IMG/VR virus record: IMGVR_UViG_3300009154_000216
Span: 1-27,505 of that record
Length of the DNA: 27,505 bases
DNA from: a virus
Strand: one strand, 5' to 3'
Within the stretch, counting starts at the first letter, position 1. Every line of letters begins with the position of its first letter. The translations under genes and the position numbers were made by a program. Of this stretch, positions 10,277 through 27,505 are shown piece after piece. The notes beneath the pieces were generated by a model that saw only the letters and a program-made list of their open reading frames with translations, was not told where the DNA came from and ran no database searches.

Positions 10277-11947
10277 ATGTCCCAAATCTCCCTCTGCATG
10301 ATCGTCGGCAACGAGGCGGCTCATATCCTCGCCTGCCTCAACTCTTTCGGCCCCGCCTTTGACCAGCTCTCGCTGGTGCGGGCCTGCGGAAACCGCGCAG
10401 CCGACGACACCGCAGCGACTGCGGCGGACTGGTGCGCGGCGAATGGAAAAAAGTTCGTGTTTTCTGAATATAAAAACGGACCCAGCGCGGCGGACTGGGA
10501 CCACGTGGACTCCTTTGCCGCGGCGCGTAACGCCAGCTTCGCGCAGGCCAGCGGAGACTGGCTCATGTGGTGCGACGCCGACGACGTGGCGGTGGGCATT
10601 GAGGGCGTGCGGGCCTGCGTGCAGACCACCGACGCCGACCTCCTGCTGTTTCCCTACGACGTGCCGGGGACAAACAAGTCGCCGATGCGGGAACGGTTAA
10701 TCTCGCGCAAGATCTGGGATGCGGGGCGGCGCTGGATTTATGCGGTCCACGAGAACTTCTGCTGCGAGCCAACCGACCGCCGGCATAATTTTGCAACGCC
10801 GGTCTGGCGCCACGCGCCGGTGGCGGAAAAGCCGATGAGCCATGCGCGCAACCTCCGCATCCTGAGCAACCAGCTGCGCGATGCGGCCAGCCAGCTTTTC
10901 TACGTTCACCAGGAGCACTACTACGCGAAGTCGAAAGCGAAGGCGCGGGAGTTTGGCGAGATCGCGCTCTCTATGCCCAACCTCCACGAGTCGTTCCGGT
11001 TTGAGATATTGATGAACCTTGGCCGCATGGCCGAGACGCCGCAGCAATCGCTGCCTTGGCTTGGTCAGGCTTTTGCCGAGAACCCGCACCTGCGCGAACC
11101 GCTGGCTGCGCTGATCGCGGCCAACCTTGAGCTTGGCAACCACCAGCGGTCGGCGGACTGCGTGCAGGCGATGCTCGCGCTGCCCGAGCCACCGGCCCAC
11201 CGCCGGCCTTGGTCTTACGAGGCGAAGTGGTATGGGTGGGCGGGGCTGGATCTAGCCGAGCGCATTGCCCGGCTCAATGGCCGCGAGCCGGAGAAGCGGG
11301 AGGGCGTGCGGATCTCGCTGCTCCATGCCACGCGGGGGCGGGCTCAGGCGGCGTGGGAGTGCCGCGAGCGTTGGCTTGGCATGGCGGCGAATCCGGCAGC
11401 GGTGGAGCATATCCTCGCGGTGGATTCTGACGATGCAGGGAGCGTGGAGCTGGCGAAGCAGTTCTCCCACGTGGTGGTCGAGCCCGGCTCGTGCGTGCGG
11501 GCATGGAACGCAGCGGCGAAGGTGGCGCTTGGGGACGTGCTGGTGCAGTTGTCGGATGACTGGATTCCCTGCTACGGCTGGGACACTGCAATCCTCGCCG
11601 AAATCGGCGACACCTCGCAGGAGTGGGTGCTGGCCGTCAGCGACGGCAACCGCACCGACTCGCTGCTCTGCATGGCCATCTTGACCCGCGCCCGCCTTGA
11701 GCGGCAGGAAGGCGGCACGCTCTTCTCGCCTAAGTATTTGTCGGTGTATTCCGACAACGAGTTTTCCCACCGAGCTTGGCGGGATGGCGTGGTGATCGAC
11801 GCCCGCGAGCGGCTCAAGTTCCGCCACGTCCACCCTTACTTCGACTCGTCGGTGCCGATGGATGCGACCTACAAGGCGAGCAACGCAGCCGAGCGTTATG
11901 ACCAAGGGCGGACGGTGTTTGAACTCAGGAATCCTGACGCTGTGTAA
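10277..11947 (+). CDS. Two-domain GT-A glycosyltransferase (plus-strand moron)
   Basis: This is a 556-aa protein and the only convincing plus-strand gene. ATG 10277 is chosen because MSQISLCMIVGNEAAHI is the classic start of a GT2-family domain and a G-rich stretch (GGGGCGGGG) lies just upstream; an upstream extension to 10139 would cross the divergent gene. The first domain (1-160) has SLCMIVGNE and a DxD-type motif CDADD (99-103). Residues about 190-335 are helical, TPR-like. A second GT-A-like domain (about 343-520) has VRISLLHATRGR, AVDSDD and SDDW (426-429). It ends with FRHVHPYFD. The role is sugar transfer to a virion or host-surface acceptor. Its 3' end overlaps the Cys-rich gene by 23 bases tail to tail. 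Confidence 0.85.
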   Translation: MSQISLCMIVGNEAAHILACLNSFGPAFDQLSLVRACGNRAADDTAATAADWCAANGKKFVFSEYKNGPSAADWDHVDSFAAARNASFAQASGDWLMWCDADDVAVGIEGVRACVQTTDADLLLFPYDVPGTNKSPMRERLISRKIWDAGRRWIYAVHENFCCEPTDRRHNFATPVWRHAPVAEKPMSHARNLRILSNQLRDAASQLFYVHQEHYYAKSKAKAREFGEIALSMPNLHESFRFEILMNLGRMAETPQQSLPWLGQAFAENPHLREPLAALIAANLELGNHQRSADCVQAMLALPEPPAHRRPWSYEAKWYGWAGLDLAERIARLNGREPEKREGVRISLLHATRGRAQAAWECRERWLGMAANPAAVEHILAVDSDDAGSVELAKQFSHVVVEPGSCVRAWNAAAKVALGDVLVQLSDDWIPCYGWDTAILAEIGDTSQEWVLAVSDGNRTDSLLCMAILTRARLERQEGGTLFSPKYLSVYSDNEFSHRAWRDGVVIDARERLKFRHVHPYFDSSVPMDATYKASNAAERYDQGRTVFELRNPDAV

Positions 11948-12230
11948 AAGGCAGCAAGCGATTCATTGCATCCTGCCGCTTGGCACAGCCGCACTTTGAT
12001 TTGTCGAGGCCGATGACGCGGGCGATGGGCTCGGCAAACTTTGCAACAAGATCGCCCAGACCGCGCATGGGCGCGGCAGCGACTGCCTCGGGTGTGCATT
12101 CGCCCCACGTGCTCCAACGTTTGATGCCGCAGCTTGAGCACTTGTCCGCTGGATCTGGACGAGGATTGCACGGCGTTGGGCAATCTTTGCAGATGTCTGA
12201 GCGAACTTGAATAACTCCGGTGGGAATCAT
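11925..12230 (-). CDS. Small Cys-rich (zinc-ribbon-like) protein
   Basis: This 101-aa protein starts with ATG 12230, overlapping the upstream stop as ATGA. Cysteines at 14, 17, 21, 31, 34, 45, 80 and 82 include two CxxC pairs (CKDC, CSSC) and a CGC-AKRQ segment near the end, so metal binding is likely. The motif [20 protein letters not shown] followed by [16 protein letters not shown] is a pattern I have seen in small phage proteins near tail genes and glycosyltransferases, of unknown function. Its 3' end overlaps the convergent glycosyltransferase gene. Confidence 0.75.
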
Positions 12231-14413
12231 GGGCAGGCGGTGCCGTCGCAGACGGTGCGGACGTTAGCGACTAGCGTAGTGCCGTCAGTTGCGGGAACGG
12301 CTAGTTCGTAGTATTTCCAAGGTGCGGTTCCGGTGCTGCCGATGAGCGGGTAGGTGCGGGTCACGCCATCGACGTAACCCAGCGGAGTCGTGCCAGTGGG
12401 CTGAGCGTTGTCAGCATATTCGGTTTCGGTTCCAAAGTGTGCGGCGAGAAGAATGGTCTCGGTGCCGTAGTAGCTTAGGTTAAGCGTGGGGTTGGTTTTG
12501 AAACCTGAGCCAGCGGCGGTCAATGTTACTCCGCTGATTGCGCCGGAAGAGTTGAGTGCGACCGTTGCAGTTGCTCCGGCGCCGCTTCCACCCGTGATGG
12601 ATAACGTGGGCAAATAATCACCCTGCAACACAACCGTGATGCCTGTGACTGCGCCACCCGAAACCGTAGCCGTAGCAGTTGCACCCGATCCGCCGTTGCG
12701 CCCTGTGATTGTGACGGTGGGTGCAGAGGTGTAGCCCGTGCCTCCTGCGCCAACGCTGATCGCGGTGACTTTGCCATCTGCCGAAAATCCGGTGACCGTT
12801 GCAGTTGCTCCGGTGCCGCCACCGTCAGAGATGGTCACGGTGGGTAGGTAATTGCCGCCGTGGACGACTTCGATGGACGTGAGCGCATGGCCGGCATCCG
12901 CCACCTCTCGCTTTACCCACTTGCCGCCAAGCGTGGTGCCACCCCAGACCGCGCACTTGGCGGTTTCGGTGCCGAGGTGGATAATTAAATCGGCGGCGGT
13001 TGAGTCGGTGACTTTCGCCGTGATAGTCAAGGTCGGCTCGCTTGTGTAGGCAGACCCGCCCGTAACTGTTACGGCTGCAATTCCGCCCGTAGAATCCACC
13101 GTGCAAGTCGCGGTGGCGCTTGACCCGCCGCCGCCCGTAAACGCAAGCGTGGGAAGATAGTTGCCTGCGTTTCCGCCAGTAATTGTGGCGACCTCCCCAG
13201 TCGTGGCGAGGGTCGCAATCCAACCCGTCGAAGTCGTGCCTCCACCTGTTGCCGTTTGCACGGTAACCGTGGGCCGGAAGTCGCCCGCTGTGCCTACGTT
13301 AATTCCGGTGACCACGCCGCCCGTAACAACTGCGGTGCCGGTGGCGCGAACTCTGGGTGCGGTGACGTTGGTAAAAGCAACTGTAGGCGCGGAGGTGTAG
13401 TTAGACCCGCCGCTCGTAATCGTCACGCCCGTGACTGCACCAGATAAATTGATAATTGCGATTGCCGCCGCGCCCGTTCCACCTCCTCCCGAGAATGTGA
13501 TGAGGGGAATGTAGCCCGCGCCTGGGTTTAGAATTGATAGACTGGCAACCGTGCCATCGCTTGCCATCACGGCAGTCGCGGCGGCATTAGTGCCTAGAGG
13601 TGAAGTGGAGATGGTGACGGTTGGACGATAAACTCCGCGTGCGTAAACTTCCACGCTGGTAACCGCAACGCCTGCCTCGGCGATGAACCGCTCAACCCAC
13701 GATGCGCGGAGTTGTTTGCCCGTGTTTACTTTCGGGATTTTGAAGCGCAGGCGGTAGCGGGACTCGCGGATGGAGTAGCTGAGTTCGTCTGTGGAGAGGT
13801 TCGCGAAGCTGCCTGCCGTGCCGTTCCAGTCGTCGTCGTAAGCGGGCAGTGCTGCAACTACTGTGGATATTAGGAGAGCATTAGTGTATTCGTTAGAAAG
13901 GGTGCAGCTACCAGCTCCAGATTGATATGTAGCGTAAGTGCCAGAAACCGCAGTAGCACTGATTGAATTAAAATACACTTCAGAGCTGAAATCAGCGCAA
14001 TCGCCCTCGTATGGACAAATATTAGCATATCCTTCGTCCAGCAAGTTTTTGGGGCCAAAGCCTTGCTCAAATATTCGGTATGCATATGTTAGCCCCGTAA
14101 GTGGCTCAGTAATTATTATTGCAGCTCCGCAAGCATCTTCATTGCATGTTGATGGGTTAAGAGTAGCACTTCCAGCGTATGTTATATCATACGAATCTTG
14201 GTTATCGTCGCAAGGTTTTTCTCCGTTGGCATCAAAAAAAACTGTTGCTGATATCCCTGCAAGAGTCGCGGTAAGGTATTTTTTGGGGGGGGTTGAGACA
14301 AATCCTTCAAACTCCTCTATTCCGCATTTCGTTCTACTCGCACTCCGCGAGTCCCACTCCACCGTCGCGGTCGGGCAAGTGCAGCAATCAGGGCATTGGG
14401 CGGCGATGCTCAT
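12227..14413 (-). CDS. Large Gly-rich beta-repeat tail protein
   Basis: This is a 728-aa protein. The first 20 residues are Cys-rich (CPDCCTCP) and the next 240 are a unique region with more Cys ([17 protein letters not shown]). From about 255 to 650 there are about seven imperfect repeats of some 40-48 residues with the form [21 protein letters not shown], then G-AVTGITVTxGGxGYTSAP. Such repeats occur in phage tail-fibre and adhesin-type proteins and should build a long beta structure. The end (about 680-728) is again non-repetitive and closes with CDGTACP. It is coupled by ATGA to both neighbours in the distal-tail part of the operon. A role as side fibre or baseplate-hub decoration is inferred. 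Confidence 0.75.
12526..13650 (-). repeat. Imperfect coding repeats (Gly/Thr/Val beta units)
   Basis: About seven units of roughly 120-150 bp encode the [13 protein letters not shown]...[11 protein letters not shown] pattern. Plus-strand words such as gttgcagttgctccggcgccgc and gttgcagttgctccggtgccgcc recur at 12564 and 12799. Copies have diverged more than the 45-bp repeats at the left end, so expansion is older. Confidence 0.7.
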
Positions 14414-14952: not shown

Positions 14953-15608
14953 TTGGCTTTCACTTGAACCGTGCGGCGCTCGTAAAAGTTGCCTTCCCAG
15001 CGGTTAAGAGTTTGGGCTTCGGCGGTAATGGAGAACGATGATTTACTAGCTCGGTCGGAGCTAACTTTTGCAATGTAGGTCGAAATTGTAAAATCGGTCG
15101 AGGTCGTAAGCTCTACGCTAGAAAGAAGCGGTGCGGTGTTATTGGCTGAAAAAGTAACGACGGTTGCATCTGCCAAATCAGGCACGTTGGGGCCGCCGAT
15201 TGTAAAATCGCTTACCAAGAAGTAATCCAATGTAATCTTAGCCATGCTGCTTGCGTTGATCGGATCTCGGATGAATTGATAGCCTGGAAACTGCGCTGCC
15301 ATGGTAGTGTATTCAACGCGATCTGCCGGCGTAATTGCGTAGTAACGGCTCCACTGGTGCTGGCCACCACCGATGGATCTAAAATCAGACTCGCGCACCA
15401 AGACGAAATTGGTGTAGCCAGCGCCGGTGTAGGTGGAACTCATCGCCAGCGGAGACCAGCTGGAGATGTTCTGCTGAAAGGTCTGGCGGAATAAAACCTT
15501 GTCGGTAACACCGGGAAACGGTGCTTGCCATTCCATCGGGCCAACGGTGGCGACGGCAGTAAATGCCACGCCTGCGCCGGGGTAAAAGGTAACGGAGGTA
15601 ACGCTCAT
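14949..15608 (-). CDS. Distal tail protein candidate, unknown family
   Basis: This is a 219-aa protein directly downstream of the tape measure gene, coupled by ATGA on both sides. It is predicted beta-rich with many Thr, Ser and aromatic residues (QNISSWSPLAMSSTYTGAGY, RYYAITPADRVEYTTMAAQF) and no membrane segment. In siphophage genomes the gene after the tape measure usually encodes the distal tail protein or another tail-tip component, so this is the likely role by position. The sequence itself is not diagnostic to me. Confidence 0.7.
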   Translation of the reverse strand: MSVTSVTFYPGAGVAFTAVATVGPMEWQAPFPGVTDKVLFRQTFQQNISSWSPLAMSSTYTGAGYTNFVLVRESDFRSIGGGQHQWSRYYAITPADRVEYTTMAAQFPGYQFIRDPINASSMAKITLDYFLVSDFTIGGPNVPDLADATVVTFSANNTAPLLSSVELTTSTDFTISTYIAKVSSDRASKSSFSITAEAQTLNRWEGNFYERRTVQVKAK

Positions 15609-17401
15609 TTTATTTTTTGTGGGGCGAGTGTGTCTTTGTTAAGAATTTGGAGTTGCTCCTTAATTTCCACTAATTCTTTTTCCATTGCCGCGTTGGGGTT
15701 GGCATCGGAGATGCGGGAGCCGAGAAGATTCTCGTTGGTGGTAATTCTGGAACGTGTTTGATCAAGCTCACTGCGGATACGACGGCCTTTTCCAAGTGGA
15801 TCTTCGCCCATTATTGAAGGTATGCCTCCGATGGAATCCACTTTTGCTGAGCTAATTCCTCCTGGATTGTAAATGCCTCCTGTTTTTATTCCAGACGCAA
15901 GCTCCTCACGCGCCCGCTGCTCGGCGTCCGCAAGGTCAAGGGCGCTGGCACGATCTCGTTGAAGTTGCGTCGCCCGACCACGAGCAACGCCTCCGATGTT
16001 GCGCTTGCCTGAGACGACATCGGCCATGGACGGCAAGAGCGATGCCTTGGCCTGCGCGGCCAGCGTCTGCTCAATGGTCTTTTTTTGCTCAAGGAGGGTC
16101 TTCTGCTGCTCTTTGAGTTTGTCGGTGCGGGCTTGTTCGGCGGCGGTTTTTTTATCAATTGAGTCAAAAAAGGAATCAAGCTCGTTTTGAATTGCGTGCT
16201 CTTGCTTCTTTTTTCTTTTGTCCTCTTCTTCTGCTGTAAACTTACTGAGATTGTCCCTTGCTTCATCTACTGCTAAATTAGCTTTAGTCAGTTGTAATTT
16301 TGTTAAGCCATTTTTATTTGCCTCCTTTTCAGCTTCGGCAAGACTCATCTGCAAATACTTAATTCCATATTTCTTTTTTAATTCATCTGACAAAGATTTA
16401 CTTCTTTGATCACTTATGGCTTTTATTTGCTCTTCCTCACTGGCGGCATCATTTGCTGCCGCTTCCTGCATAGTGGTTTTATGTTCTTGTAGTGCAATGT
16501 TGGCTTTTTCAGACGCGGCTTTAGCTTTGAGTGTTTTTAAGTCTCCCTCTTCGTTTATTGATGTGGCATAAGCTATTTTGAAGTTTAATGACGCTTGATC
16601 TGCTTCGTCTTGAAGAAACTTTAATTTCTTTTTTGGATCTTTATCTAATGATTTTAATAAAGAGTCTCTTGTTCGTTGGCCGGATTCTGCCATTAACTCT
16701 GTAATTTGTTTTGTTCTTTCGGCTATATTATCAATATATTCGTTGATTTTCTTGTATCCATATACAATTCCAGCAATCGCGGCAGCTACTGCAACGGCAG
16801 GGCCAGCCGCCGCAGCAGTTCCTGCTCCGGCGGCTGCGGTAGCAACGCCTGCCGCTTCAGGAAATAATCCTGCTAATACTCCACCTAGTCCAAGTTTACC
16901 TCCGATTGATTTAACTAGACCCAATCCTTTAGATGCATTTCTTGATAAAAAACCACCCGTAGCTGCACCAGCAACACCACTTGCAATTTGTCCGCCAGCT
17001 CCTCCAGATGAAGCAGCTACCTTTTTTTGAATAGATTTAGTGAATGAGGCATCTGAAGCAGCAACTGAAGCAGATGCTGAGGCTTCGGCTTGTTTTTGAG
17101 TTACTCTAACTCTGCCGATCTCAACCATTTTTTTCTCAATCTCAAGTTGAGTTGATAAATATGGTGCAGACCCGGCAATTGCAATCTTTCTTAGATTATA
17201 AAGCTGAACCAATTCACCCTGTAAGATTTTAATCTTATTTAGATCAGTAGCCTCTTCAAGTGCTTTATTCCTTCTAAAGTCGGCAAGCTTTGCCTGCGCA
17301 TCTGCTGATTTTTTTGCCGCTCGATTTGCATCAAGCATTCCCTTCTCAAATTCGCTAATATCCAGCCCGAGGCGTGCGTTGATTTCTGAGAAGAAGGCCA
17401 T
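15605..17401 (-). CDS. Tape measure protein (short, about 598 aa)
   Basis: ATG 17401 (MAFFSEINARLGLDISEFEK) is chosen over 17440 because the longer form overlaps the previous gene. The start matches the usual phage tape-measure opening, LGLDxSxFxxGM. Residues 20-130 and about 220-470 are long charged helices. Residues about 130-216 are Gly/Ala-rich and hydrophobic, with a likely membrane-inserting segment (GLFPEAAGVATAAAG ... AAAIAGIVYGY). Tape measure proteins set tail length and help DNA pass the membrane. About 600 residues predicts a fairly short tail. The stretch 16200-17380 is clearly AT-richer than its neighbours, with many poly-T runs on the plus strand, pointing to mosaic origin. Confidence 0.85.
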   Translation of the reverse strand: MAFFSEINARLGLDISEFEKGMLDANRAAKKSADAQAKLADFRRNKALEEATDLNKIKILQGELVQLYNLRKIAIAGSAPYLSTQLEIEKKMVEIGRVRVTQKQAEASASASVAASDASFTKSIQKKVAASSGGAGGQIASGVAGAATGGFLSRNASKGLGLVKSIGGKLGLGGVLAGLFPEAAGVATAAAGAGTAAAAGPAVAVAAAIAGIVYGYKKINEYIDNIAERTKQITELMAESGQRTRDSLLKSLDKDPKKKLKFLQDEADQASLNFKIAYATSINEEGDLKTLKAKAASEKANIALQEHKTTMQEAAANDAASEEEQIKAISDQRSKSLSDELKKKYGIKYLQMSLAEAEKEANKNGLTKLQLTKANLAVDEARDNLSKFTAEEEDKRKKKQEHAIQNELDSFFDSIDKKTAAEQARTDKLKEQQKTLLEQKKTIEQTLAAQAKASLLPSMADVVSGKRNIGGVARGRATQLQRDRASALDLADAEQRAREELASGIKTGGIYNPGGISSAKVDSIGGIPSIMGEDPLGKGRRIRSELDQTRSRITTNENLLGSRISDANPNAAMEKELVEIKEQLQILNKDTLAPQKIK

Positions 17402-17411
17402 GTGGAAAAAG

Positions 17412-18050
17412 TTAAGCAGCGGGGCGGTTGATCTCTTCAAGCCAGTCGCTCATTACCTTGTCGGATGGCGACGAGTCCTTGAACTCACCCTCGGCCTCGT
17501 TGGCGCGAATGGCTTTGAGATATTGGAAAATGCGCGCGAGCGGGGAGCGCGCCCAGACCTCGCCGGTGGCGGGATCGTGGGGGCCGAGCGCAGAGGCAAG
17601 CCTGGTGAGCATGGAGGCCATGAAGCACACGCCGAGGGGCCGGCGGTCGGACTTGCTGCCCTTCGGCGCATCTTGGAAAACGTCGGCCATGTAGGCATCG
17701 ATTTGCGTGCCGCACTCCGCCAGCGGGTCCACGGCTTTGATTTGGGCCACTCTCTGGATCAGCTTGCGGCGCTGATACCACTTGCGGAGCCGACTGCCCT
17801 TATTCTCGACGGAGAGCACCCAGAGAAACTGCATCACGTCCACGGCCTCGGGGTAGGCCTCGCCGGCAACGTAGGGGTTGCCGAGACCTTGCAGCATCAG
17901 CATATCGCCGAGGGTCATCTGGCGGATGCGCTCGCCGCATACTACCGAACTCCACTCAATGAACGCCTGCTCGCGCAGCGCGTTCTCCCTCGCCTGCATT
18001 GCGTGCCAGCGAGGAAAGTATTTCTCAGCCCATAGAGCGGTGGAGTCCAC
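17412..18050 (-). CDS. Tail assembly chaperone-position protein
   Basis: This 212-aa protein has a GTG start at 18050 preceded by AAGGA eleven bases upstream. It is almost entirely helical and has a conserved-looking core (RQMTLGDMLMLQGLGNPYVA, AVDVMQFLWVLSVENKGS). It ends ten bases before the tape measure start, where tail assembly chaperones (gpG/gpGT-like) normally sit. I looked for a slippery sequence with a second frame, as in lambda, and did not see a convincing one. The assignment rests mainly on position and on the resemblance of the core to other phage proteins in this slot. Confidence 0.65.
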   Translation of the reverse strand: MDSTALWAEKYFPRWHAMQARENALREQAFIEWSSVVCGERIRQMTLGDMLMLQGLGNPYVAGEAYPEAVDVMQFLWVLSVENKGSRLRKWYQRRKLIQRVAQIKAVDPLAECGTQIDAYMADVFQDAPKGSKSDRRPLGVCFMASMLTRLASALGPHDPATGEVWARSPLARIFQYLKAIRANEAEGEFKDSSPSDKVMSDWLEEINRPAA

Positions 18051-18064
18051 GGGGTTTCACGTCC

Positions 18065-18412
18065 TTAAACGGATTCGCGGAAGGTAATATCGACCATCTT
18101 AAAACCGTTCTGGGACTCAGGCTTGGAGACCTCGGTGATAAAGAAGGTCACCGAGTTCGCAGTGAACTGGTCGCCCGCTGCGGGAAAGGTTGTGGAGGTG
18201 GTGGCGAGCTGGAGCGAAGCCGAGCCGGTGATCGGCTGGCGGATGCCAACTGCACCGTTCGGCGCGCCGACCTCATCCTGGCGGTCGATGACTTGCAGTC
18301 CGGTGGAGGTGGAGAAGCTGTTGGCGATGTAGCCAACTGCGCTCAAAGTAAGAACGCGGGAGCCGTAGGGGAGAGTTGCGGTGGTAAGATATGGGATGGC
18401 CATGTTACCCAT
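18065..18412 (-). CDS. Tail tube protein candidate
   Basis: This gene encodes 115 aa from ATG 18412, or 112 aa from ATG 18403 (MAIPYLTT). The protein is beta-rich (RVLTLSAVGYIANSFSTSTG, SASLQLATTSTTFPAAGDQF, VTFFITEVSKPES) and ends with MVDITFRESV. Its size, composition and position between the tail terminator and chaperone genes fit a small tail-tube or tube-associated subunit, but it is shorter than most siphophage major tail proteins. Its leader carries one copy of the recurring CGTAAAA-core motif (18421-18427), placed on the stop codon of the preceding gene. Confidence 0.6.
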   Translation of the reverse strand: MGNMAIPYLTTATLPYGSRVLTLSAVGYIANSFSTSTGLQVIDRQDEVGAPNGAVGIRQPITGSASLQLATTSTTFPAAGDQFTANSVTFFITEVSKPESQNGFKMVDITFRESV

Positions 18413-18420
18413 GGCCGCTT

Positions 18421-18427
18421 CGTAAAA
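18421..18427 (-). promoter_or_regulatory. Recurring leader motif, copy A
   Basis: The minus strand reads TTTTTTACGAAGCGGCCATG up to the first start codon of the tube candidate, and continues GGTAACATGGC. This is nearly the same as the leader of the protease gene (22956-22982). The seven-base core on the plus strand is CGTAAAA. It is not a Shine-Dalgarno or a standard promoter box. Confidence 0.5.
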
Positions 18428-18429
18428 AA

Positions 18430-18924
18430 TCAGACCAGCGTGCCGGAGGTTGGCACGGTGTAGCTGGAGCCAAGCAGACCAATCGGGAGGCGATAGGAAA
18501 CGGTTGAGGTGTCTTCGCGGGTCTCCTCGGTGACCTCGTGGCTCTCACCCGACTCAACGATGTCGAGCGGCTCAAAGAGCGTGACCACCGGAGAGACAAA
18601 CGACTGCGCCTCGCGGCTCATCAGGTAGCGAACGCGCTGAAGGATGAGGTCGTGCTGCGCGGCCCCGTCGCCTGCGCGGTCGGAGACGATGGCAATGTCC
18701 ACTCCAACCTCAAAATGGTTGAAGAAGAACGCGCCGTTGGCGGATGCCATCTGCTCGCTGGCGCGGCTGACGCCGGTGACCGTAACATCAATGCGCGGAG
18801 CGACCGCGGCGATGTCGCTGCGGTTGGTGCGGATGGCGGCGGTGGGAACGTAGTTTTGACCGGCGGCGAGGACGCTTTTCACGGCGTCTTTTACCATGTC
18901 GGTGATGTCGTATTGGGTGGGCAT
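18430..18924 (-). CDS. Tail terminator-like protein
   Basis: This is a 164-aa protein with ATG 18924 three bases after the preceding stop. It begins MPTQYDITDMVKDAVKSVLA and shows the helix followed by alternating strands (RIDVTVTGVSR, FEVGVDIAIVSDR) and the helix HDLILQRVRYLMSRE that are typical of the gpU/tail-terminator or tail-completion fold. Position after a gp10-like gene and before the tube gene supports this. The assignment is by layout and fold pattern, not by a diagnostic motif. Confidence 0.6.
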   Translation of the reverse strand: MPTQYDITDMVKDAVKSVLAAGQNYVPTAAIRTNRSDIAAVAPRIDVTVTGVSRASEQMASANGAFFFNHFEVGVDIAIVSDRAGDGAAQHDLILQRVRYLMSREAQSFVSPVVTLFEPLDIVESGESHEVTEETREDTSTVSYRLPIGLLGSSYTVPTSGTLV

Positions 18925-18927
18925 AAA

Positions 18928-19776
18928 TTATTCGGAATTAAAGGATTTTCGACGAGTCAGGATCTTGCCGGTGGAGGCAAATGAATTGACCAAGCGCTGG
19001 ATTTCGGCGGTGAGTTTCTTTCCTCGAATTGCAATGGCCATATTGGCTGCTCCCTGTGCGCCAGGAACATGTGATCTTCCGCCTAGAGTGACGGCAAAAG
19101 TTTCTCCGCTACCCTCTTCTGAATATGAACCAAGATCACCATGTCGCCTTACCCAAGGAGGTATGCGCTTCATGCCTAAAATCATGGCTGCGGCATTAAA
19201 TGTGGCCTTGGCAGCTCCAACATTATAAATCAGGTCCGCCAAATATCGTGAATAAACCTCGTTTGGAACTATAAGTTTTTGTTTGGCAACCCATCGACCG
19301 ATGTTGTTGTCCGCTCTGCCGTAGGACTTGTCGCCCATCTTGTAGTGGTTCGGCGGGCGTCCGCGCTTATCCATCTTACTGCGATGAAACTTGCTTAATT
19401 CTCCGGTTGTAAAAGCAACTTTATCCCAATCAATCAAATATGGTTTTTTACTTCCTTTCTTAAAAAACTGCTTTCGGATTTGAGTCGTTCCGCCAAATTC
19501 CTTGACCACAAAATGGAGGAACCCTTCTTCGGCGTGGCCTGCGACTTGGGCAAGGTCATGCGTGATAAGTTTTTTCCCTGCCTCAAAGTCAGCGCTATTT
19601 CCAATGCTTTTTCCGTAATTACCTTTTGCAAATGGTGGCGTGAGCTTCATGAACTCGCCGATAAAAAGCCGTGCCTCTTCTCGGATTAACTCGGTAGAAT
19701 TGGCTCGTAGCTCACGCACCGCCCGCTGCGCGGCCATGCGGAACTCGGCGGTATTGAGGTCGATATTCAGGTTCAC
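18928..19776 (-). CDS. Tail completion / gp10-like neck protein
   Basis: This 282-aa protein has a GTG start at 19776 overlapping the previous stop (GTGA). The start MNLNIDLNTAEFRMAAQRAV, and then RELRANSTELIREEARLFIG and the MKLTPPFAKG block, resembles phage HK97 gp10-like or minor tail proteins, in which the TPP turn follows a long helix. The middle (RADNNIGRWVAKQK, then YNVGAAKATFN) is found in related phage proteins. It is longer than HK97 gp10 (about 110-150 aa), so it may carry an extra domain. The segment 19050-19700 is AT-richer than its neighbours. Confidence 0.6.
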   Translation of the reverse strand: MNLNIDLNTAEFRMAAQRAVRELRANSTELIREEARLFIGEFMKLTPPFAKGNYGKSIGNSADFEAGKKLITHDLAQVAGHAEEGFLHFVVKEFGGTTQIRKQFFKKGSKKPYLIDWDKVAFTTGELSKFHRSKMDKRGRPPNHYKMGDKSYGRADNNIGRWVAKQKLIVPNEVYSRYLADLIYNVGAAKATFNAAAMILGMKRIPPWVRRHGDLGSYSEEGSGETFAVTLGGRSHVPGAQGAANMAIAIRGKKLTAEIQRLVNSFASTGKILTRRKSFNSE

Positions 19777-20087
19777 GCGAGGCGCTTGTTGAGCGTGCAG
19801 TCGTAGGCTTGCAGGTCCGGCTTGAAGTCGGTGATGCGGTAGGTGGTCGAGTCGAAGGGGCGATAGACCAGCGCGTTGATCGTGGGGGTGTAAACGCCCC
19901 GGCTGAATGCCAGGCTGACGGTCGCATCGGTGCGGTTGCCGACGAGCTCAAAACCGAACTGCTGGTCGGTCTGGCCGAACACGCCAGAGTAGGTCACGCC
20001 ACCAACGACGAAGGCTTCGCCGGAATAGGTGGTGGAGCAGATGGCGCTCATGTCGGTTTCAAGTTGGGTAAGGTCGAAGTCGCTCAT
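19773..20087 (-). CDS. Head-tail joining protein candidate
   Basis: This gene encodes 104 aa with ATG 20087 overlapping the FkbM-gene stop (ATGA); a frame to 20105 also exists. After an N-terminal helix (SDFDLTQLETDMSAI) the protein is beta-rich (GEAFVVGGVTYSGVFGQ, ATVSLAFSRGVYTP, TTYRITDFKPDLQAYD). The short YSGVFGQ strand-turn and the size resemble lambda gpFII-like head-tail attachment proteins. Position between head and tail-completion genes fits. Moderate confidence only. Confidence 0.6.
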   Translation of the reverse strand: MSDFDLTQLETDMSAICSTTYSGEAFVVGGVTYSGVFGQTDQQFGFELVGNRTDATVSLAFSRGVYTPTINALVYRPFDSTTYRITDFKPDLQAYDCTLNKRLA

Positions 20088-20674
20088 AGTCGTGCGTAGA
20101 TACAATTGGCCGCATTGTTGAATATCCGCTTCATGCCGTGGCTGGCGGCGTGGTTGTCGAACGGCACGATGTCGCTGCCGTTGTGCTCAACGCAAACCAG
20201 CCGCACGCCGAGGGCGGATAAATCGAACTGGCGGAAGATCAGGAGGTCCGATCCTTCGGCGTCAATGCTTAGGAAATCCACCCGCGAAAGTTCGGCGCGC
20301 TTGAGCAGGCTTGCGACGGTCAGGGTCTCAACCTGAACCTCGGCAAAGGTGTAGCAGCTCCACCTTTGCAGTTCCGATTCGACTAGCGACGAAACCATGT
20401 GCCGGCTGTTGGCGTCGGACTCGTGGAACGTTGCCTCTCCGTCCTGATCCGACACGGCGACCTGATAGGCGCAGGCGTTGGGGAGGTTCTGCTTGAGCTT
20501 GGCGAACGCTGCGGCCCCGGGCTCAACGTGGACGCCTCGCCAGCCCAGATCGACGAGGGCGCGGGTGTTGGAGAAGGTCACGCCGTCGTTGGCTCCGATG
20601 TCGAGGAACACGCCAGGTGCGCCGCAGTGGGCCAAGATGACTGCTTGCTCGCCGTGCTGAGAGTAATCGTTCAT
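20084..20674 (-). CDS. FkbM-family methyltransferase
   Basis: This is a 196-aa protein from ATG 20674 (MNDYSQHGEQ); an in-frame TTG at 20680 is less likely. It has the S-adenosylmethionine motif FLDIGANDG (23-31), the HVEPG strand (49-53) and the late DFLSIDAEGSDL block (133-144), which together are diagnostic for the FkbM methyltransferase family. These enzymes O-methylate sugars or small molecules, often on surface glycans. The gene is inserted between the major capsid gene and the head-tail genes and begins five bases after the capsid terminator. With the plus-strand glycosyltransferase it suggests modification of a glycan on the virion or host. Confidence 0.9.
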   Translation of the reverse strand: MNDYSQHGEQAVILAHCGAPGVFLDIGANDGVTFSNTRALVDLGWRGVHVEPGAAAFAKLKQNLPNACAYQVAVSDQDGEATFHESDANSRHMVSSLVESELQRWSCYTFAEVQVETLTVASLLKRAELSRVDFLSIDAEGSDLLIFRQFDLSALGVRLVCVEHNGSDIVPFDNHAASHGMKRIFNNAANCIYARL

Positions 20675-20678
20675 GCCC

Positions 20679-20708
20679 AAAAAAGCCCACCCCGGTAAAA
20701 GGGTGGGC
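20679..20708 (-). terminator. Intrinsic terminator after the major capsid gene
   Basis: The minus strand reads GCCCACCC, an eight-base loop, then GGGTGGGC followed by six T. The stem is 20685-20692 paired with 20701-20708, with the T run at 20684-20679. It lies 22 bases after the capsid stop and ends five bases before the FkbM start, so most transcripts should stop after the capsid gene and only read-through would express the genes downstream. Confidence 0.85.
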
Positions 20709-20729
20709 TCAGAACTAAGCGCTTATGGC

Positions 20730-21680
20730 TTAGGAATATTGAGTAGCAATAATTTCCCCAGCGGCGGAATTGACAACCTTTTCGGCGGTCGAGTGCGCGG
20801 CGCGAACGATGTCCGACTTGATCGGTTCGTCACGGTAGGTCTCGACGTTGAGAACGGTGCCATACTGCGACCAGTTGAGGGTGTAGGCAGCGCCACCGTC
20901 TAAGATGCTGGTGCCGACATTACCCACCCAAATGTAGCTGTTCGACCAGATCAGGGAGCTGGAGAACGCGATACCTTCGGCAGCACCATCATAAGCGGCG
21001 CGACCGATGAGGACGCGGTCAACACCGAACACGTCGGCCATGGCGGACGCATCAAGGTTTAGGATAGAATCGCTTGAAACACCTGCACCGCGAGCGCGGT
21101 TCTGGAATTTCGTGGAAGCGCGGAGACGGGTGGCGACCTGATAGGGGATGACGACGGTGTTCGCGGTCTCGCCCTTGCTGATCAGACGATCCTTGGCATC
21201 ATCGACGTCATTGCCGACATCGAACGTGGCGATGTTGGCGGTGGTGTAAGCGGTGCCAGAGTTGGTGCTGGTGAAGGTAGTGGCATTGAACAGCACGGCG
21301 GCGGCGCGGAGCTCGTGAGCGAGCAGGAGCTTGCGGCGGGCAAGGCGGGTGGCGATCACCTCGGAGTCGAAGAACGTGGCGTTCTTCAAACGGATCGTGT
21401 CATCGACAGCCTGCTCGAAACCATACTCCAAGCAAGTGTAGGTGTCCTGAACAAAAGACGAGGTGCCGCGAGCAAAGCCGGAGTAAGGCGCACGGGCCTT
21501 AACCTCGGTCTTGAGCAACTGGCCCTGTTGTTTCTGGAACTTAGGATATTGACCTTCGGGAAGGGCAACCTCGACAACGGGCAGCGCGAGCGTGCCAATG
21601 AGGTTCTTCTCCCAGCCTTCGGTCTCGAAAACGTGACCGGCCAACTCGGCGCGGTAAATGGCATTTGAATTTGAATACAT
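20730..21680 (-). CDS. Major capsid protein
   Basis: This 316-aa protein follows the protease/scaffold and decoration genes, the usual place for the major capsid protein. The N-terminal part (MYSNSNAIYRAELAGHVFET) has no long delta domain, as expected when a separate scaffold is made. Central helices (ARRKLLLAHELRAAAVLFNA) and the DVDDAKDRLISKGETANTVV, NTVVIPYQVATRLRAS and ADVFGVDRVLIGRAAY blocks are typical of HK97-fold capsids. Codon use is regular and rich in preferred codons, as for a highly expressed gene. No Shine-Dalgarno is seen before ATG 21680. A strong terminator follows. Confidence 0.85.
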   Translation of the reverse strand: MYSNSNAIYRAELAGHVFETEGWEKNLIGTLALPVVEVALPEGQYPKFQKQQGQLLKTEVKARAPYSGFARGTSSFVQDTYTCLEYGFEQAVDDTIRLKNATFFDSEVIATRLARRKLLLAHELRAAAVLFNATTFTSTNSGTAYTTANIATFDVGNDVDDAKDRLISKGETANTVVIPYQVATRLRASTKFQNRARGAGVSSDSILNLDASAMADVFGVDRVLIGRAAYDGAAEGIAFSSSLIWSNSYIWVGNVGTSILDGGAAYTLNWSQYGTVLNVETYRDEPIKSDIVRAAHSTAEKVVNSAAGEIIATQYS

Positions 21681-21692
21681 GATGGGTAGTGA

Positions 21693-22046
21693 TTAGAGGG
21701 TGTTGGCGATGAACTCGATGATCGCGCCAGTGACGGCGGAGGTGGTGAGGGACTTGCCGATGGCGACGGTGCCGGCAGGCGAAACATTGCCGGCGTTGGC
21801 GGCATAAACCACGTCACCGATGGTGATCGGGGAAGCGGAGAGCGCGCCTTTCTGGGTGCCGGGGTTGTGAAGGAATTTGACCGAGACGTAATCGCCAGAG
21901 GCGCCGTCGATCAGAGCGAAACCGTCCGGCTTGGTGGAGCCGGAGTTGAGGGTGATGCCGCCATTGCTGGACAGCACCACGGCGCGGAAAGCGGTAACGG
22001 TGGTGTTCGCAAGGAACGTGCCGTTGCCTGAATATAGGGTGGACAT
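21693..22046 (-). CDS. Capsid decoration (cement) protein
   Basis: This is a 117-aa beta-rich protein (MSTLYSGNGTFLANTTVTAF ... DGASGDYVSVKFLHNPGTQK ... IGDVVYAANAGNV). The alternating short strands and Gly-Asp turns are typical of DUF2190-like and related head decoration proteins, which bind the capsid surface after expansion. Position between protease and capsid genes supports this. The leader before ATG 22046 is pyrimidine-rich (CCATCCATCCC), with no Shine-Dalgarno. Confidence 0.75.
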   Translation of the reverse strand: MSTLYSGNGTFLANTTVTAFRAVVLSSNGGITLNSGSTKPDGFALIDGASGDYVSVKFLHNPGTQKGALSASPITIGDVVYAANAGNVSPAGTVAIGKSLTTSAVTGAIIEFIANTL

Positions 22047-22064
22047 GGGATGGATGGATTAGGG

Positions 22065-22958
22065 TTAGAACAGAATCACCTCGCCCTTTTGGGCGCGGGA
22101 AAGGTAGGTGGCGTAGAGTTCGGGCTTCTCGGCCTGAGTCTTACGCACGGCGTCGTTGTGCTTGGTGCCGCCGGCCTTGAGGGCGCGAACGATGCTCTCG
22201 AAGCTCTCGGCGGTGGGCTCGACCGCAGGAGCGGAGAACTTAACCGGAGCAGGGAGATTGGCCGAGAACTCGCGCAGGACGGACAGCGCGGCTTCTTTGG
22301 CAGCAAGTTGGACCTTGGCCTTGTCGGCTTCGGACATGTTGGTGGCATGCGCAGCCGTATCGACTGCGTTGGCGGCTTCAAGGGCCGCGATTTTCTCGGC
22401 CAGGGGGGCGAGGGCGGCAGCAATCGCTGCCTGGATTTCTTCGGGAGTCATTTGTGGGGGGGAGGTGGGTTGGGTATCGCCGGCCTGAAATAGGCCGGAA
22501 GGGTTTGCGGCGGGCTCACTCACGATGTCGGCGGAGTAAATCTCCGTGCATCGGGCAAACACGTGGTCGCCGATCTTTTCGTCGGCGCCGGAAAATGAGA
22601 TGGAGAGGCCGAACGTGTCGGGAATGGTCGAGGCGATCTCCAGCACGTAGTCGCGGTGGGGAGAGGACTTGAGCAGGGTCAGGTCGGCGCGCACGGCGTC
22701 GCCTTCAATGCGGAAACCGCGAAGGTAGCCGACGATGGCACCGGCGGAGTCGGTGTGGTCGAGCTTCACCTTCATGCCGCCCTCGTAGGTGTTGGCTTGA
22801 GCGACCACGCCGGCAAGGGTCGTGTCGTCCACCGACATCCCGTGGCCGAGAGCTGGGCCTTTGGTGATGACTGCAACGCCGTAGATCACGCCCTCAGCCG
22901 CATCAATGCGGTTGCCGAGGGTCGCAAACTGGGTGCAGAAATTGGACACGGTAGCCAT
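22065..22958 (-). CDS. Prohead protease fused to scaffold
   Basis: ATG 22958 (MATVSNFC) gives 297 aa; the TTG two codons upstream is less likely. Residues about 20-165 carry the prohead-protease pattern: GxxxGMSVDDTT, the catalytic-type KLDHTD (His68), RADLTLL and the GLSISFSG serine block (Ser119 or Ser121). Residues about 175-265 are an Ala/Glu-rich helical region (EEIQAAIAAALAPLAEKIAA), a typical scaffold. Protease and scaffold in one chain is common: the scaffold guides capsid assembly and is then cut. The leader holds a copy of the recurring CGTAAAA motif (22975-22981). Confidence 0.8.
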   Translation of the reverse strand: MATVSNFCTQFATLGNRIDAAEGVIYGVAVITKGPALGHGMSVDDTTLAGVVAQANTYEGGMKVKLDHTDSAGAIVGYLRGFRIEGDAVRADLTLLKSSPHRDYVLEIASTIPDTFGLSISFSGADEKIGDHVFARCTEIYSADIVSEPAANPSGLFQAGDTQPTSPPQMTPEEIQAAIAAALAPLAEKIAALEAANAVDTAAHATNMSEADKAKVQLAAKEAALSVLREFSANLPAPVKFSAPAVEPTAESFESIVRALKAGGTKHNDAVRKTQAEKPELYATYLSRAQKGEVILF

Positions 22959-22982
22959 TACCAATGGCTCGCATCGTAAAAA
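22956..22982 (-). promoter_or_regulatory. Recurring leader motif, copy B
   Basis: The minus strand reads TTTTTACGATGCGAGCCATT and then GGTAATGGC into the protease start codon. It matches the leader of the tube candidate (copy A) at most positions across nearly 30 bases, although the proteins are unrelated. No Shine-Dalgarno is present in this leader. Confidence 0.5.
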
Positions 22983-23124
22983 GTGGCGGGGTGAGGCGAT
23001 TGCCAGCGCCCCCGCCTGCGCTGTGATAAAACCCCGGATGGGGACTAGCCGCGCCCCATCGCGTCGGAGGGTTGGCGGTAGCTACACAAAACACGGGAAC
23101 CTAAACCCGCATTAGGCGGGCGAG

Positions 23125-23131
23125 CGTAAAA
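23125..23131 (-). promoter_or_regulatory. Recurring leader motif, intergenic copy D
   Basis: The minus strand reads TTTTACGCTCGCCCGCCTAA and then TGCGGG just after the terminator. It shares TTTTACG, the following CG/CC-rich stretch and a TAATG with copies A, B and the one at 10250, but here the ATG opens only a four-codon frame, so this copy is not at a gene start. Confidence 0.35.
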
Positions 23132-23141
23132 TGTGGACACG

Positions 23142-23166
23142 AAAAACCCCACCGTTGCGGGTGGGC
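23142..23166 (-). terminator. Intrinsic terminator after the Dam-like gene
   Basis: The minus strand reads GCCCACC-CGCAAC-GGTGGG followed by G and five T. The stem is 23148-23153 paired with 23160-23165, and the T run is 23146-23142. It starts 29 bases after the methyltransferase stop. Its stem begins with the same GCCCACC as the terminator behind the capsid gene. Confidence 0.8.
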
Positions 23167-23194
23167 TTGTGATCTGATTTGGAAAAGGTTCCGA

Positions 23195-23686
23195 CTACTC
23201 CCTGTTAGGCAGAAGAATAAAGGCCGCGATATATCGCCCGGTTCCCTTGCCTCGGGATCCGTCCTCGGTCGCCAGCCAGCGCACGTCGCCCAGATTGCGG
23301 ATGTTGCCCGCTCCGGTCGCGTTGAGCATCATCAGAACCCACTTGTCCACCGGATAGACCACGACGGACAGCTTTCCTTTTTTCTGCTCCTCTATCGCCT
23401 TTCGCATCCATGCGGTCGGGCCTTTTTTTTTCCCGTTGTGCATGATGGATCCAAAGGGCGGGTTTACCCAGTTGCGTTGCCCCCATTCGCAGGTCAGGCC
23501 GTCGAAGTCCGCAGGTTTGGGGCAGGGGCATGGGTCGAAGTCGAACGGGCCGAAATCGGCCACCAGCTTGGCGATTGCGGGTTCCTCCCATGGCGTCAGC
23601 CAGTAGTGCTTGCCGTCCTCGCCGTTGCCGAGATGGAATTTGTTATCCGCAGGGCTGAGTTGGGATTGGTGTAGCGTTTGTATCAT
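23195..23686 (-). CDS. Dam-like phage DNA adenine methyltransferase
   Basis: This 163-aa protein has the N6-adenine methylase catalytic motif NPPFG (75-79) preceded by DFDPCPCPK (49-57) and a WLTPWEEPAIAKLV opening (29-42). This matches the short phage N-6-adenine methyltransferase (Dam) family, which methylates adenine in a short DNA site and often protects phage DNA from restriction. It lacks a target-recognition domain of its own, as usual in this family, and is at the short end of the range. It lies 56 bases after the large terminase and ends before an intrinsic terminator. Confidence 0.85.
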   Translation of the reverse strand: MIQTLHQSQLSPADNKFHLGNGEDGKHYWLTPWEEPAIAKLVADFGPFDFDPCPCPKPADFDGLTCEWGQRNWVNPPFGSIMHNGKKKGPTAWMRKAIEEQKKGKLSVVVYPVDKWVLMMLNATGAGNIRNLGDVRWLATEDGSRGKGTGRYIAAFILLPNRE

Positions 23687-23742
23687 AAAGAAAATCGGAA
23701 GACGGAGTTGAACCAGCTAAATCAAAGATTCTTTTCTTAGGC

Positions 23743-25506
23743 TCACGCAGGGCTCCGCAGAATACCACGAGCCAGCGCGACCGCGATCTGCATGGCAGCG
23801 GTGTCAAGGGCGTGATTGTTGTTTTGCTTCACCTCGATCCAGTGCCAGATGCCAGGTCTCACCTCGCGCTTCTCCTCGCTTTTGACCTGCTCAGGCCAGA
23901 GCGGGTTGTGGTCGTCGGGGAGCAAATAGGGGAAGCCGCGACCGGAGAGGCTAGCGGAGAGGACGTCCTTGGCCCACTCGCCGTCAAACTCGATGTAAGG
24001 TGCGGTCTGGTCGTTGCCGACCGTCGCAAACAGGGTGTCGGAGATGGGCGTCAGAATCATGCTGCCGTCATGGGCGCGCATCGGCCAGCGCTTGCCTTTA
24101 GTCTTGGCGCCTTGGATGCCGCTCCAACCGAACGCAACCGAGTCGCGGTCCACCTCGCTCGGCATATAGCCGCGATCCTGACCGACTGCGTAGTCCTTCA
24201 CGCCGTAAATGCGCTGGAGCTCGCGCAACATATCGCGGGTTTCGACTTTGCCAAAGTAGAGCTGGCGGTAGGTGGGCTCGGGAGTCCACGCGCCGATCTC
24301 CACCCACCAGCCGGCCTGCTGCTTGTCGCAGGTCATCACGCGGGCGATCTCGCCAGGCAGCGGTGCGTCGCGGTGGGTCTGGCTGGTGTAGCCGGAGGGC
24401 TTGCGGTCGCCGAGCTCGATCACGTTGCGCTCGATGGTCCAGAAGCCGGCCTCCTTCTTTTGTTTGAAATTGCGCCGCTCGGTCTCGTCGCCCATCTTGG
24501 CGAACACGTTCTCCGCAGCGCAGAATTGGGCGGCAAGGGTTTCCATCGGGAGCGCAACCACGGCGTCGTAGGTGAAGCTCACGCGGCGGCGGGCGGGTGC
24601 CTCGCCGGTGGGTGTGACGTAGCGGCCCGTCGTGCGCCACTGGTGGCGGGTGCGGTCGGTGTCGGCGTGCTCGTGGCCGCAATGAGGGCAGACGAAGCGC
24701 ACCGATGCCGCGGCGAGTGCAACGTCGAAGGTGCCGTCGTCGCGCTTCGCCTTTGCATCCCATACCACGCCCGCGCGTCCACCATCGGTGCGGCTGCATC
24801 GAAACTTCAGCGGCATAGGTTTGGCGCAGCCAGCGCAGTCGGCGTGCCAGACTTCTTTCGTGCCGCCGTCAAAACTGGTCCAAGCGGTGTCGCCTTCGGT
24901 GCCGCCTTGGGAGATGTCGAGGATGTGAGAAATGCCTTGGGCCTCGAAAGCGGAGACGCGGGCGAGGGCATGCGGGTAGATCTCGGCCCAGCGAGGGAAC
25001 CAAAGCTCGTCGTTGATTTTGAAGCGGATGGATTGGCTTTGCTGGTGCGCGAGGTTGGCCGAGTTAAGAACCAGGAACTGGTTGCCGAGAAAGATCTCTT
25101 GCTGGGTGCGGAGCGGGCCTGGGCGCGGAAGCAGGCGGGCGACGGACTCAATGGAGTCAAGCAGCGGCATCAAGCGGGTCTTGGCTTCCATCGCGGCCAT
25201 CTCGTCGGATTGAAACGTGAAGGAGCAGGGACCGGGGTCGTTGGCGAGGCGGTAGGCGACGGCCAACTCGGCGAGCAGGGTCTTGCCCGTTTGCACCGGC
25301 GCGATGAGCGTGGTATGGCGGCAGAGCGGGTCGGTGAGCGTCTCAAACGGGCGCTTGAGCCACGGGGAGTTGCGGATGTCGAAGCGACCGCGGATCGGCG
25401 AGCCGGGGATGTCGGCAACGTGGTCACGCGCCCACTCGTAGATGGGGCGGGTATCACGCGCCGGGATGCCCCAAGCGTCGGCCAGCGGTTGAGGAATCCT
25501 AAGCAT
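23743..25506 (-). CDS. Terminase large subunit (GpA family)
   Basis: This is a 587-aa protein with a Walker A-like motif APVQTGKT (69-76), the FTFQSDEMAAMEAKTRLMPL block, the SANLAHQQSQSIRFKINDEL region and a zinc-ribbon-like part with CAGC and CPHCGHEH, all characteristic of lambda gpA-type packaging ATPase/nucleases. The enzyme cuts concatemeric DNA and drives it into the prohead. The C-terminal nuclease part includes SEVDRDSVAFGW and the late DHNPLWPEQV and NNHALDTAAMQIAVALA blocks. The length is slightly below lambda gpA (641 aa). ATG 25506 overlaps the small-subunit stop by eight bases. Confidence 0.93.
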   Translation of the reverse strand: MLRIPQPLADAWGIPARDTRPIYEWARDHVADIPGSPIRGRFDIRNSPWLKRPFETLTDPLCRHTTLIAPVQTGKTLLAELAVAYRLANDPGPCSFTFQSDEMAAMEAKTRLMPLLDSIESVARLLPRPGPLRTQQEIFLGNQFLVLNSANLAHQQSQSIRFKINDELWFPRWAEIYPHALARVSAFEAQGISHILDISQGGTEGDTAWTSFDGGTKEVWHADCAGCAKPMPLKFRCSRTDGGRAGVVWDAKAKRDDGTFDVALAAASVRFVCPHCGHEHADTDRTRHQWRTTGRYVTPTGEAPARRRVSFTYDAVVALPMETLAAQFCAAENVFAKMGDETERRNFKQKKEAGFWTIERNVIELGDRKPSGYTSQTHRDAPLPGEIARVMTCDKQQAGWWVEIGAWTPEPTYRQLYFGKVETRDMLRELQRIYGVKDYAVGQDRGYMPSEVDRDSVAFGWSGIQGAKTKGKRWPMRAHDGSMILTPISDTLFATVGNDQTAPYIEFDGEWAKDVLSASLSGRGFPYLLPDDHNPLWPEQVKSEEKREVRPGIWHWIEVKQNNNHALDTAAMQIAVALARGILRSPA

Positions 25507-26080
25507 CGGCCTCGGTGGTCTCGTCCTCGGTGTTGAGTTCTTCCATGGCAGCGGCTTCGTCTTTCTGGGTCTGCTCGTCTTCGCCGGCCATGATCTCGGG
25601 CGCTATCTCGCCCACGAAAAGCGTGCGGCTGATTGCGCTGAGCTCGGCGACGACGGCGCGCATCTCTTCGCGCATCTCGGCGGAATCTTTGCCGACCAGC
25701 CGCGCCGGCGCTTCGGTCTCTAGCTTGGTTGCAAGGATGCTGCCCCACTTTGCCGTAGCGAGCGTGACCATTGCGCGGATCTCCTCGGCGGCCACGACGT
25801 CCTTGTCGCGCACCGAGTTCTCGCGCTGCTTCATTTTTAAGTCCTCAAGGGCGATGAGTCGCTTGACCTCGGCAAGCTCCTTGCTGCCGCCAGTGCGGTC
25901 GGCGCGCTCGCGCAGGAACTTAACGTAGCCACGCACCGAGTCCATCAGCGCGTAGGTGCCATGCCCGACCTTCACGATCACGCCCGCGCTGGCGAGTTGC
26001 TGCACTCGCATCGGGGTAAGGTCAAAGACCTTGGCCAGCGTGGTGACGCCGACGCCCTTCGTTTTGTCGGGGCCGCTCAT
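25499..26080 (-). CDS. Terminase small subunit (Nu1-like)
   Basis: This 193-aa protein begins with ATG 26080 overlapping the methylase stop (ATGA). An N-terminal helix-turn-helix (TTLAKVFDLTPMRVQQLASA, about 13-33) is followed by a winged segment (YALMDSVRGYVKFLRERA) and a long helical region (about 68-150), ending in a very acidic tail (EELNTEDETTEADA). This is the layout of lambda Nu1-type small terminases, which recognise the packaging site. The gene directly precedes the large subunit, as expected. I did not locate a cos site. Confidence 0.85.
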   Translation of the reverse strand: MSGPDKTKGVGVTTLAKVFDLTPMRVQQLASAGVIVKVGHGTYALMDSVRGYVKFLRERADRTGGSKELAEVKRLIALEDLKMKQRENSVRDKDVVAAEEIRAMVTLATAKWGSILATKLETEAPARLVGKDSAEMREEMRAVVAELSAISRTLFVGEIAPEIMAGEDEQTQKDEAAAMEELNTEDETTEADA

Positions 26081-27426: not shown

Positions 27427-27429
27427 GTC

Positions 27430-27505
27430 TTATTGAGATTGAGTCTTGAAAGCAAAGCGGATGGCAAAAAGTTGTTCGCTCAAAACTGCGTTAGGTAACA
27501 AAACC
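27430..27505 (-). CDS. 3' end of an upstream gene (partial)
   Basis: The minus strand is open from the right edge through 24 codons (VLLPNAVLSEQLFAIRFAFK then TQSQ) to TAA 27432-27430, three bases before the methylase start. The tight spacing and the compact style of this genome make a real upstream gene likely. Too little is visible to suggest a function, and another frame could be used. Confidence 0.4.
   Translation of the reverse strand, partial: VLLPNAVLSEQLFAIRFAFKTQSQ

Follow-up and report, generated by a model that had tools for sequence, protein, structure and literature searches.

How is a gene expressed when its start codon sits only a few bases behind the probable terminator of the abundant capsid message, and what is a methyltransferase doing among head genes? 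Both questions are raised by IMG/VR virus record IMGVR_UViG_3300009154_000216, of which positions 1 to 27,505 were analysed as one stretch (hereafter the window). On its minus strand, the gene for the major capsid protein is followed by a hairpin with a T run and, four bases later, by the ATG of an FkbM-family methyltransferase gene (Table 1). The initial annotation had described a strong terminator with an 8-bp stem and six T at this place, and the sequence reads exactly so. An alternative register of the stem gives 9 pairs, including one G-T, at -17.7 kcal/mol.

Table 1. Position and strand of the features discussed, numbered along the window
Feature	Position	Strand	Remark
Second, weaker terminator-like hairpin	23148..23165	-	upstream of three genes ending with capsid
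Major capsid protein gene, 316 aa	20730..21680	-	phrog_1005 major head protein, E 7.5e-35
Terminator-like hairpin of capsid gene, GCCCACCC/GGGTGGGC stem + T6	20679..20708	-	direct reading, conservation, covariation
Hairpin 5' arm, GCCCACCC	20708-20701	-	
Hairpin loop, TTTTACCG	20700-20693	-	
Hairpin 3' arm, GGGTGGGC	20692-20685	-	
T6 after stem	20684-20679	-	
GGGC	20678-20675	-	
FkbM ATG	20674-20672	-	
FkbM-family methyltransferase, 196 aa	20084..20674	-	accessory; PF05050 E 1.3e-19
GGCATGAA at FkbM start	20670..20677	-	putative left repeat of L006/L065 deletion
GGCATGAA near FkbM 3' end	20130..20137	-	putative right repeat; in window, absent from L008
Next gene after FkbM	19773..20087	-	ATGA overlap; relatives known; 'head-tail' by position only
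Two-domain glycosyltransferase	10277..11947	+	PF00535 E 6.6e-9; phrog_13126

The hairpin stands out from its surroundings. Under a strict criterion (stem of at least 8 Watson–Crick pairs with at least 6 G-C, loop of 3-9, at least 5 T in the next 6 bases) it is the sole such stem in the 27.5 kb window, where it is found in two overlapping registers, and the chance level estimated from 200 first-order random sequences is 0.02 per window. A default terminator scan of positions 15000-27505 returned 13 weaker sites against 16.0 expected and left the post-capsid hairpin out of its output, probably because lengthening the stem by G-T pairing uses up part of the T run. Since the second, weaker hairpin lies upstream and the strong one downstream, a three-gene unit ending with the capsid gene is bracketed by terminator-like hairpins. 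The other two genes encode a 299-aa protein with no family match and a 117-aa protein whose Phage_cement_2 match is sub-threshold (18.5 bits against 24). An Rfam family for the strong hairpin was rejected, as the single match listed, rnk_pseudo, scored 24.6 bits against a cut-off of 55. A separate small hairpin lies across the capsid stop codon (20715-20733). Many relatives share it, one group having AAGCC/GGCTT and a second AATCC/GGATT.

A search of viral contigs with the capsid protein gave 67 relatives. A hairpin follows the capsid gene in all 65 records that were scored (the window and 64 relatives; 43 distinct sequences), beginning 20-41 bases from the first base of the capsid stop codon. 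In each it consists of an unbroken stem of 9-15 pairs, G-T allowed, and then a T-rich tail, which is no independent count because the T run was among the scoring criteria. The 65 records leave out L063, which is cut off, and L067 and L068 (39% and 32% capsid identity), in which no such hairpin is seen by eye. Among 14 distinct hairpins, 99.2% of the pair cells are standard and both sides have changed in 36 cells; the covariation score reaches 0.869, whereas shuffles give 0.239 and none of 500 is as high, and sliding the partners by 1-3 columns as a control leaves at most 0.179. This set omits L014, L017 and L026, which are out of register, and L066, all four of which have an unbroken stem in the 65-record scoring. 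As the hairpin is present behind the capsid gene whatever gene comes next, it belongs to the capsid gene. Its GC-rich stem with an immediate T run, its conservation and the pairing maintained across relatives indicate that it is probably the intrinsic terminator of the capsid unit.

The stretch between the hairpin and the next head-region gene is a site where accessory genes come and go. The slot has been seen with FkbM, empty, with an HNH-like gene or with glycosyltransferase genes. The 19 close relatives (86-100% capsid identity) divide into ten with FkbM (L002-L005, L008, L010, L011, L013, L014, L016), six with the next gene directly behind the hairpin (L007, L009, L012, L015, L018, L019), two with an FkbM remnant (L006, L065) and one with an HNH-like gene (L017). 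Relatives with about 60% capsid identity usually have a homologue of the window's glycosyltransferase in the slot, about 41-50% identical over most of its length; behind it comes either another glycosyltransferase-like gene or a methyltransferase of class I (PF13489, L039). An HNH-like gene precedes the slot glycosyltransferase in L026, L031, L040, L042 and L043, its ATG directly at the end of the T run; the name rests on a marginal HNH match (21.3 bits in L031 against a cut-off of 21.4, none in L017). The suggestion that FkbM is a non-structural insert in the head region was therefore borne out, since relatives have other contents, or none, at this place. In one of the relatives, L059, a glycosyltransferase is split across three open frames (120-2084 after the capsid match) and so looks broken.

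The capsid tree requires at least four changes between presence and absence of FkbM, without distinguishing gain from loss. Neighbours with and without the gene (L015 and L018 against L016; L009 and L012 against L010) share the capsid 3' end (92-97% identity) and the hairpin region (91-96%), and their sequences diverge at the T run; the script used for this comparison did not locate the next gene in L013 and L016. Exchange sometimes carries the hairpin along, because at 92-93% capsid identity the hairpin of L017 differs from that of L012 (52%) and the hairpin of L007 from those of the remnant records L006 and L065 (77%). The exact window string from hairpin to ATG was found in seven viral contigs, all among the capsid relatives.

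The two remnants show what the loss of the gene can look like. L006 and L065 retain the hairpin and GGGCATG, and nearly all of FkbM is gone; a 16-codon in-frame ORF runs from the same ATG, and its stop still overlaps the next gene. The deletion appears to have occurred between the GGCATGAA repeats, a conclusion drawn from window-like relatives because L008 lacks the second copy, and it is probably one event in the two records. L007, which is without the remnant, groups with them on the capsid tree, and this is taken as recombination. A comparable in-frame remnant, of the HNH-like gene, occurs in L059, and the in-frame state of the two remnant cases could be due to chance.

The protein itself is an unremarkable member of its family. 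It matches the PF05050 (Methyltransf_21) profile at 71.5 bits against a curated cut-off of 22.7, and its confidently predicted structure (mean pLDDT 90.5) has the SAM-methyltransferase fold, resembling SAM methyltransferases in the PDB at TM 0.4-0.56 and viral FkbM models at up to about 0.8; by sequence, no PDB chain was matched at E 0.01. Relatives are frequent in phages, with 417 found by a profile scan, and the stretches DIGANDG and SIDAEG, which we take to be family motifs, are shared with phage relatives. The protein is thus an FkbM-type methyltransferase, with a sugar as its most likely substrate.

The stop codon of FkbM (TGA, 20086-20084) overlaps the start of the next gene (ATG, 20087-20085). 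The initial annotation had read this ATGA as a junction with a head-tail gene. The overlap stands; the head-tail identity comes from position, with no Pfam or PHROG match at E 0.01 and a structure prediction of low confidence (mean pLDDT 43). As an extra gene between neighbours in relatives, FkbM resembles phage moron or cargo genes. However, strict morons have a promoter and a terminator of their own, whereas here the preceding terminator belongs to the capsid gene and the strict criterion finds no strong terminator behind FkbM in the 27.5 kb window. A promoter in the gap before FkbM was rejected, as four bases leave no room for one.

The reading that we favour, with a probability of about 0.72, combines a leaky capsid terminator with an exchange slot in which FkbM is optional. 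The hairpin would end the capsid transcription unit and would be leaky, so that the genes downstream are made at a lower level than the capsid. FkbM would be one accessory gene in the slot, with its start right after the T run and its stop over the start of the next gene. Read-through RNA would supply a small amount of its product, and initiation would probably not use a Shine–Dalgarno sequence, as presumably holds for much of this phage's translation. The overlap may couple translation and thereby keep the downstream gene translated. The product would methylate a sugar, and the phage's own glycosyltransferase might plausibly be the enzyme that adds it.

T7 offers a parallel to this scheme: its capsid gene (gene 10) is immediately followed by Tphi, and the next gene starts a few bases later (Tphi at 24210, gene 11 from 24228 in the T7 genome). 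The T7 gap between Tphi and gene 11 holds a Shine–Dalgarno sequence. Tphi differs in serving T7's own RNA polymerase and in that gene 11 is a tail gene, whereas the first downstream gene in the window is optional cargo. According to PMC5592923, T7 genes 11 and 12 are expressed only via read-through of Tphi.

Several observations fit the leaky-terminator scheme less well. A promoter-like site (20776-20749, 9 of 12 matches) lies upstream of the hairpin, five such sites having been found against 4.4 expected, and antitermination or another promoter may drive the genes behind the hairpin. L067 and L068 show no such hairpin by eye, exchange did not always occur at the T run, as L017 and L007 show, and the glycosyltransferase, on which the glycan part of the scheme depends, is distant from FkbM and on the other strand.

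That glycosyltransferase is about 8.1 kb away from FkbM and is encoded on the plus strand, whereas the phage genes around it run on the other. Its start is likely at 10277, where relatives begin matching, within an open frame from 10139. It matches the family 2 profile at 36.4 bits against a curated cut-off of 23.3 and has a weak PDB match to GmaR (E 8.2e-6, residues 38-153). In the 69 records compared (the window, the 67 capsid relatives and L141), a glycosyltransferase homologue is present in 51 and FkbM in 12. All 12 records above 25 kb contain the glycosyltransferase, and the three of these with FkbM (the window, L003 and L008) have both genes. The other nine FkbM records, of at most 13 kb and with no glycosyltransferase present, test nothing on pairing, since the two genes lie so far apart. 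In 48 records, close relatives L006, L007, L017, L018 and L065 included, the glycosyltransferase occurs without FkbM, so it does not need FkbM.

The surroundings of FkbM in other phages are informative here. Fifteen loci were compared, drawn from 77 (in part the best 80 of 417), of which 41 had long flanks, and thinned at 75% identity. Two glycosyltransferase families account for 23 of the 89 genes within three positions of FkbM (12 of the 15 loci), against 8 of 121 further out and 1 of 52 beyond six positions; the near-to-far enrichment has a Fisher p of 1.4e-4, with neighbouring genes not independent and with family labels partly seeded from an FkbM neighbour, which favours the enrichment. 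The C-terminal domain of the glycosyltransferase in the window belongs to one of these families, which is found at 9 of the 15 loci. Among the 89 neighbours, 16 match Pfam Glycos_transf_2 and 18 match a glycosyltransferase PHROG, which is the most frequent PHROG there. The proposed pairing of FkbM with the glycosyltransferase thus held up in part. FkbM without the glycosyltransferase, looked for as a check in relatives, was not seen in FkbM records above 25 kb, and FkbM lies near glycosyltransferases in other phages; against this stand the 48 records with the glycosyltransferase alone. FkbM also lies inside glycosyltransferase-like gene clusters in L071, L142, L146, L156 and L191, and the scanned neighbours include GDP-mannose dehydratase and radical SAM genes. 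No terminator-like hairpin lies within 90 bases of the FkbM start among 69 starts in L142-L210, some with little upstream sequence. One does lie 37 bases before FkbM in L141, a fragment that begins inside a capsid-like C-terminus.

FkbM proteins can have non-sugar substrates. The substrate might thus be a lipid, a small molecule or a host protein, in which case the association with the glycosyltransferase would be coincidental. This would agree with FkbM being optional while the glycosyltransferase is constant in the long records, and with the distance and opposite strands of the two genes. Nevertheless, the glycosyltransferases near FkbM in other phages, including homologues of the very C-terminal domain found in the window, make it unlikely. 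A role in glycan synthesis and methylation for the two genes is a reasonable idea, and counterparts have been described elsewhere. In chlorovirus PBCV-1, with A064R as the example, virus-encoded glycosyltransferases and a sugar methyltransferase build the viral N-glycan (PMC9614988), and according to PMC12363180 the mycobacteriophage glycosyltransferases Che8 gp110 and Corndog gp38 are needed for capsid glycosylation. The comparison is by description, and for the window phage a virion glycan is hypothetical. The word FkbM is absent from PMC9614988.

Turning from the enzyme to the hairpin, a different function of the stem has to be weighed. Hairpins of this sort can protect mRNA 3' ends, and the structure could mainly serve to stabilise the abundant capsid mRNA or to mark it for processing, setting no limit on downstream genes. 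Strong conservation of the stem directly behind the capsid gene would be expected under this explanation too. However, protection of a 3' end does not need a T run such as the six T of the window or the T-rich tails displayed for relatives, and such a role is improbable.

The loop raises another possibility. A hexaloop YTNACY (YUNACY in RNA) is kept in most relatives despite widely differing stems; L017 has GAAA. Of the 43 distinct sequences, 40 have T at the second loop position, 41 have A at the fourth and 38 have C at the fifth. Only one loosely similar loop occurs at 24 other hairpin-and-T sites in the same records, nine of which are the other strand of post-capsid hairpins. A loop conserved above the stem suggests recognition, and a phage or host protein may bind it and so set read-through into a slot specialised for capsid-glycan enzymes. 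We regard such a regulated gate as a long shot. UNAC loops are generally stable and GNRA-like, and this explains the conservation more cheaply than protein recognition.

Finally, the initial annotation had suggested that bases in the 3' arm of the hairpin may act in both termination and initiation, the arm then also serving as a ribosome binding site for FkbM. The best anti-Shine–Dalgarno match in the FkbM leader is GGGGTGGGC, at -7.0 kcal/mol and a usable distance; this is the third strongest pairing among 26 valid starts, which were hand-picked from the ORF list and are not all proven genes (a 27th entry, 22955, has no start codon and was dropped). In the window group and near relatives the arm ends 5-10 nt before the FkbM start, a distance that in some varies with the choice between two adjacent ATGs. 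These points favour the idea, and for this leader it is reasonable to describe the arm as the sole purine-rich stretch ahead of the start codon. On the other side, the arm is identical in FkbM-free L007, L012, L015, L018 and L019, so its sequence is set by the stem. Its positions -15 to -11 have an unpaired probability of 0 in the predicted RNA, and the FkbM AUG is partly open in the predicted read-through RNA (0.75, 0.81 and 0.45 unpaired). The wider spacing in L141 also argues against a double role, and 14 of the 26 starts, those of the capsid and cement-like genes included, have anti-Shine–Dalgarno energies above -2. With an arm that is kept without FkbM and buried in the hairpin, and so many starts lacking such pairing, the double role was rejected and is very improbable; the simplest view is Shine–Dalgarno-independent initiation of FkbM on read-through RNA.

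The arrangement is tidy and mostly ordinary, and it is no new kind of system. What it offers is a recurrent exchange site behind a capsid terminator, seen in several states including natural deletion remnants, and phage FkbM genes tied to glycosyltransferases. If the virions are glycosylated and methylated, capsid glycosylation would extend to a group of uncultured phages; otherwise, the locus would represent ordinary phage mosaicism. Judged by titles among the matches listed, no paper describes this arrangement. Annotated phage records gave no match to the window's capsid protein at E 1e-5 and none to its glycosyltransferase. A scan of bacterial genomes with the capsid protein alone confirmed nothing, and one with the capsid alignment gave eight loci. 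Two of these are in bins titled as beta-proteobacteria, namely L079, the closest full-length match (59%), and L086, a 41-residue piece (63%); the other six are at 26-32% and in bins of other phyla. Weak terminase matches span many hosts, Verrucomicrobia phages included. In L079, an apparent hairpin with a T run and a glycosyltransferase-like start can be read behind the capsid gene. Elsewhere in the window, also on the minus strand, positions 269-787 hold a 172-aa open frame of repeated KANPEKVKAQNAAYR-like units, and positions 12227-14413 encode a 728-aa protein with repeated glycine-rich units that resemble a 15-residue type sequence.
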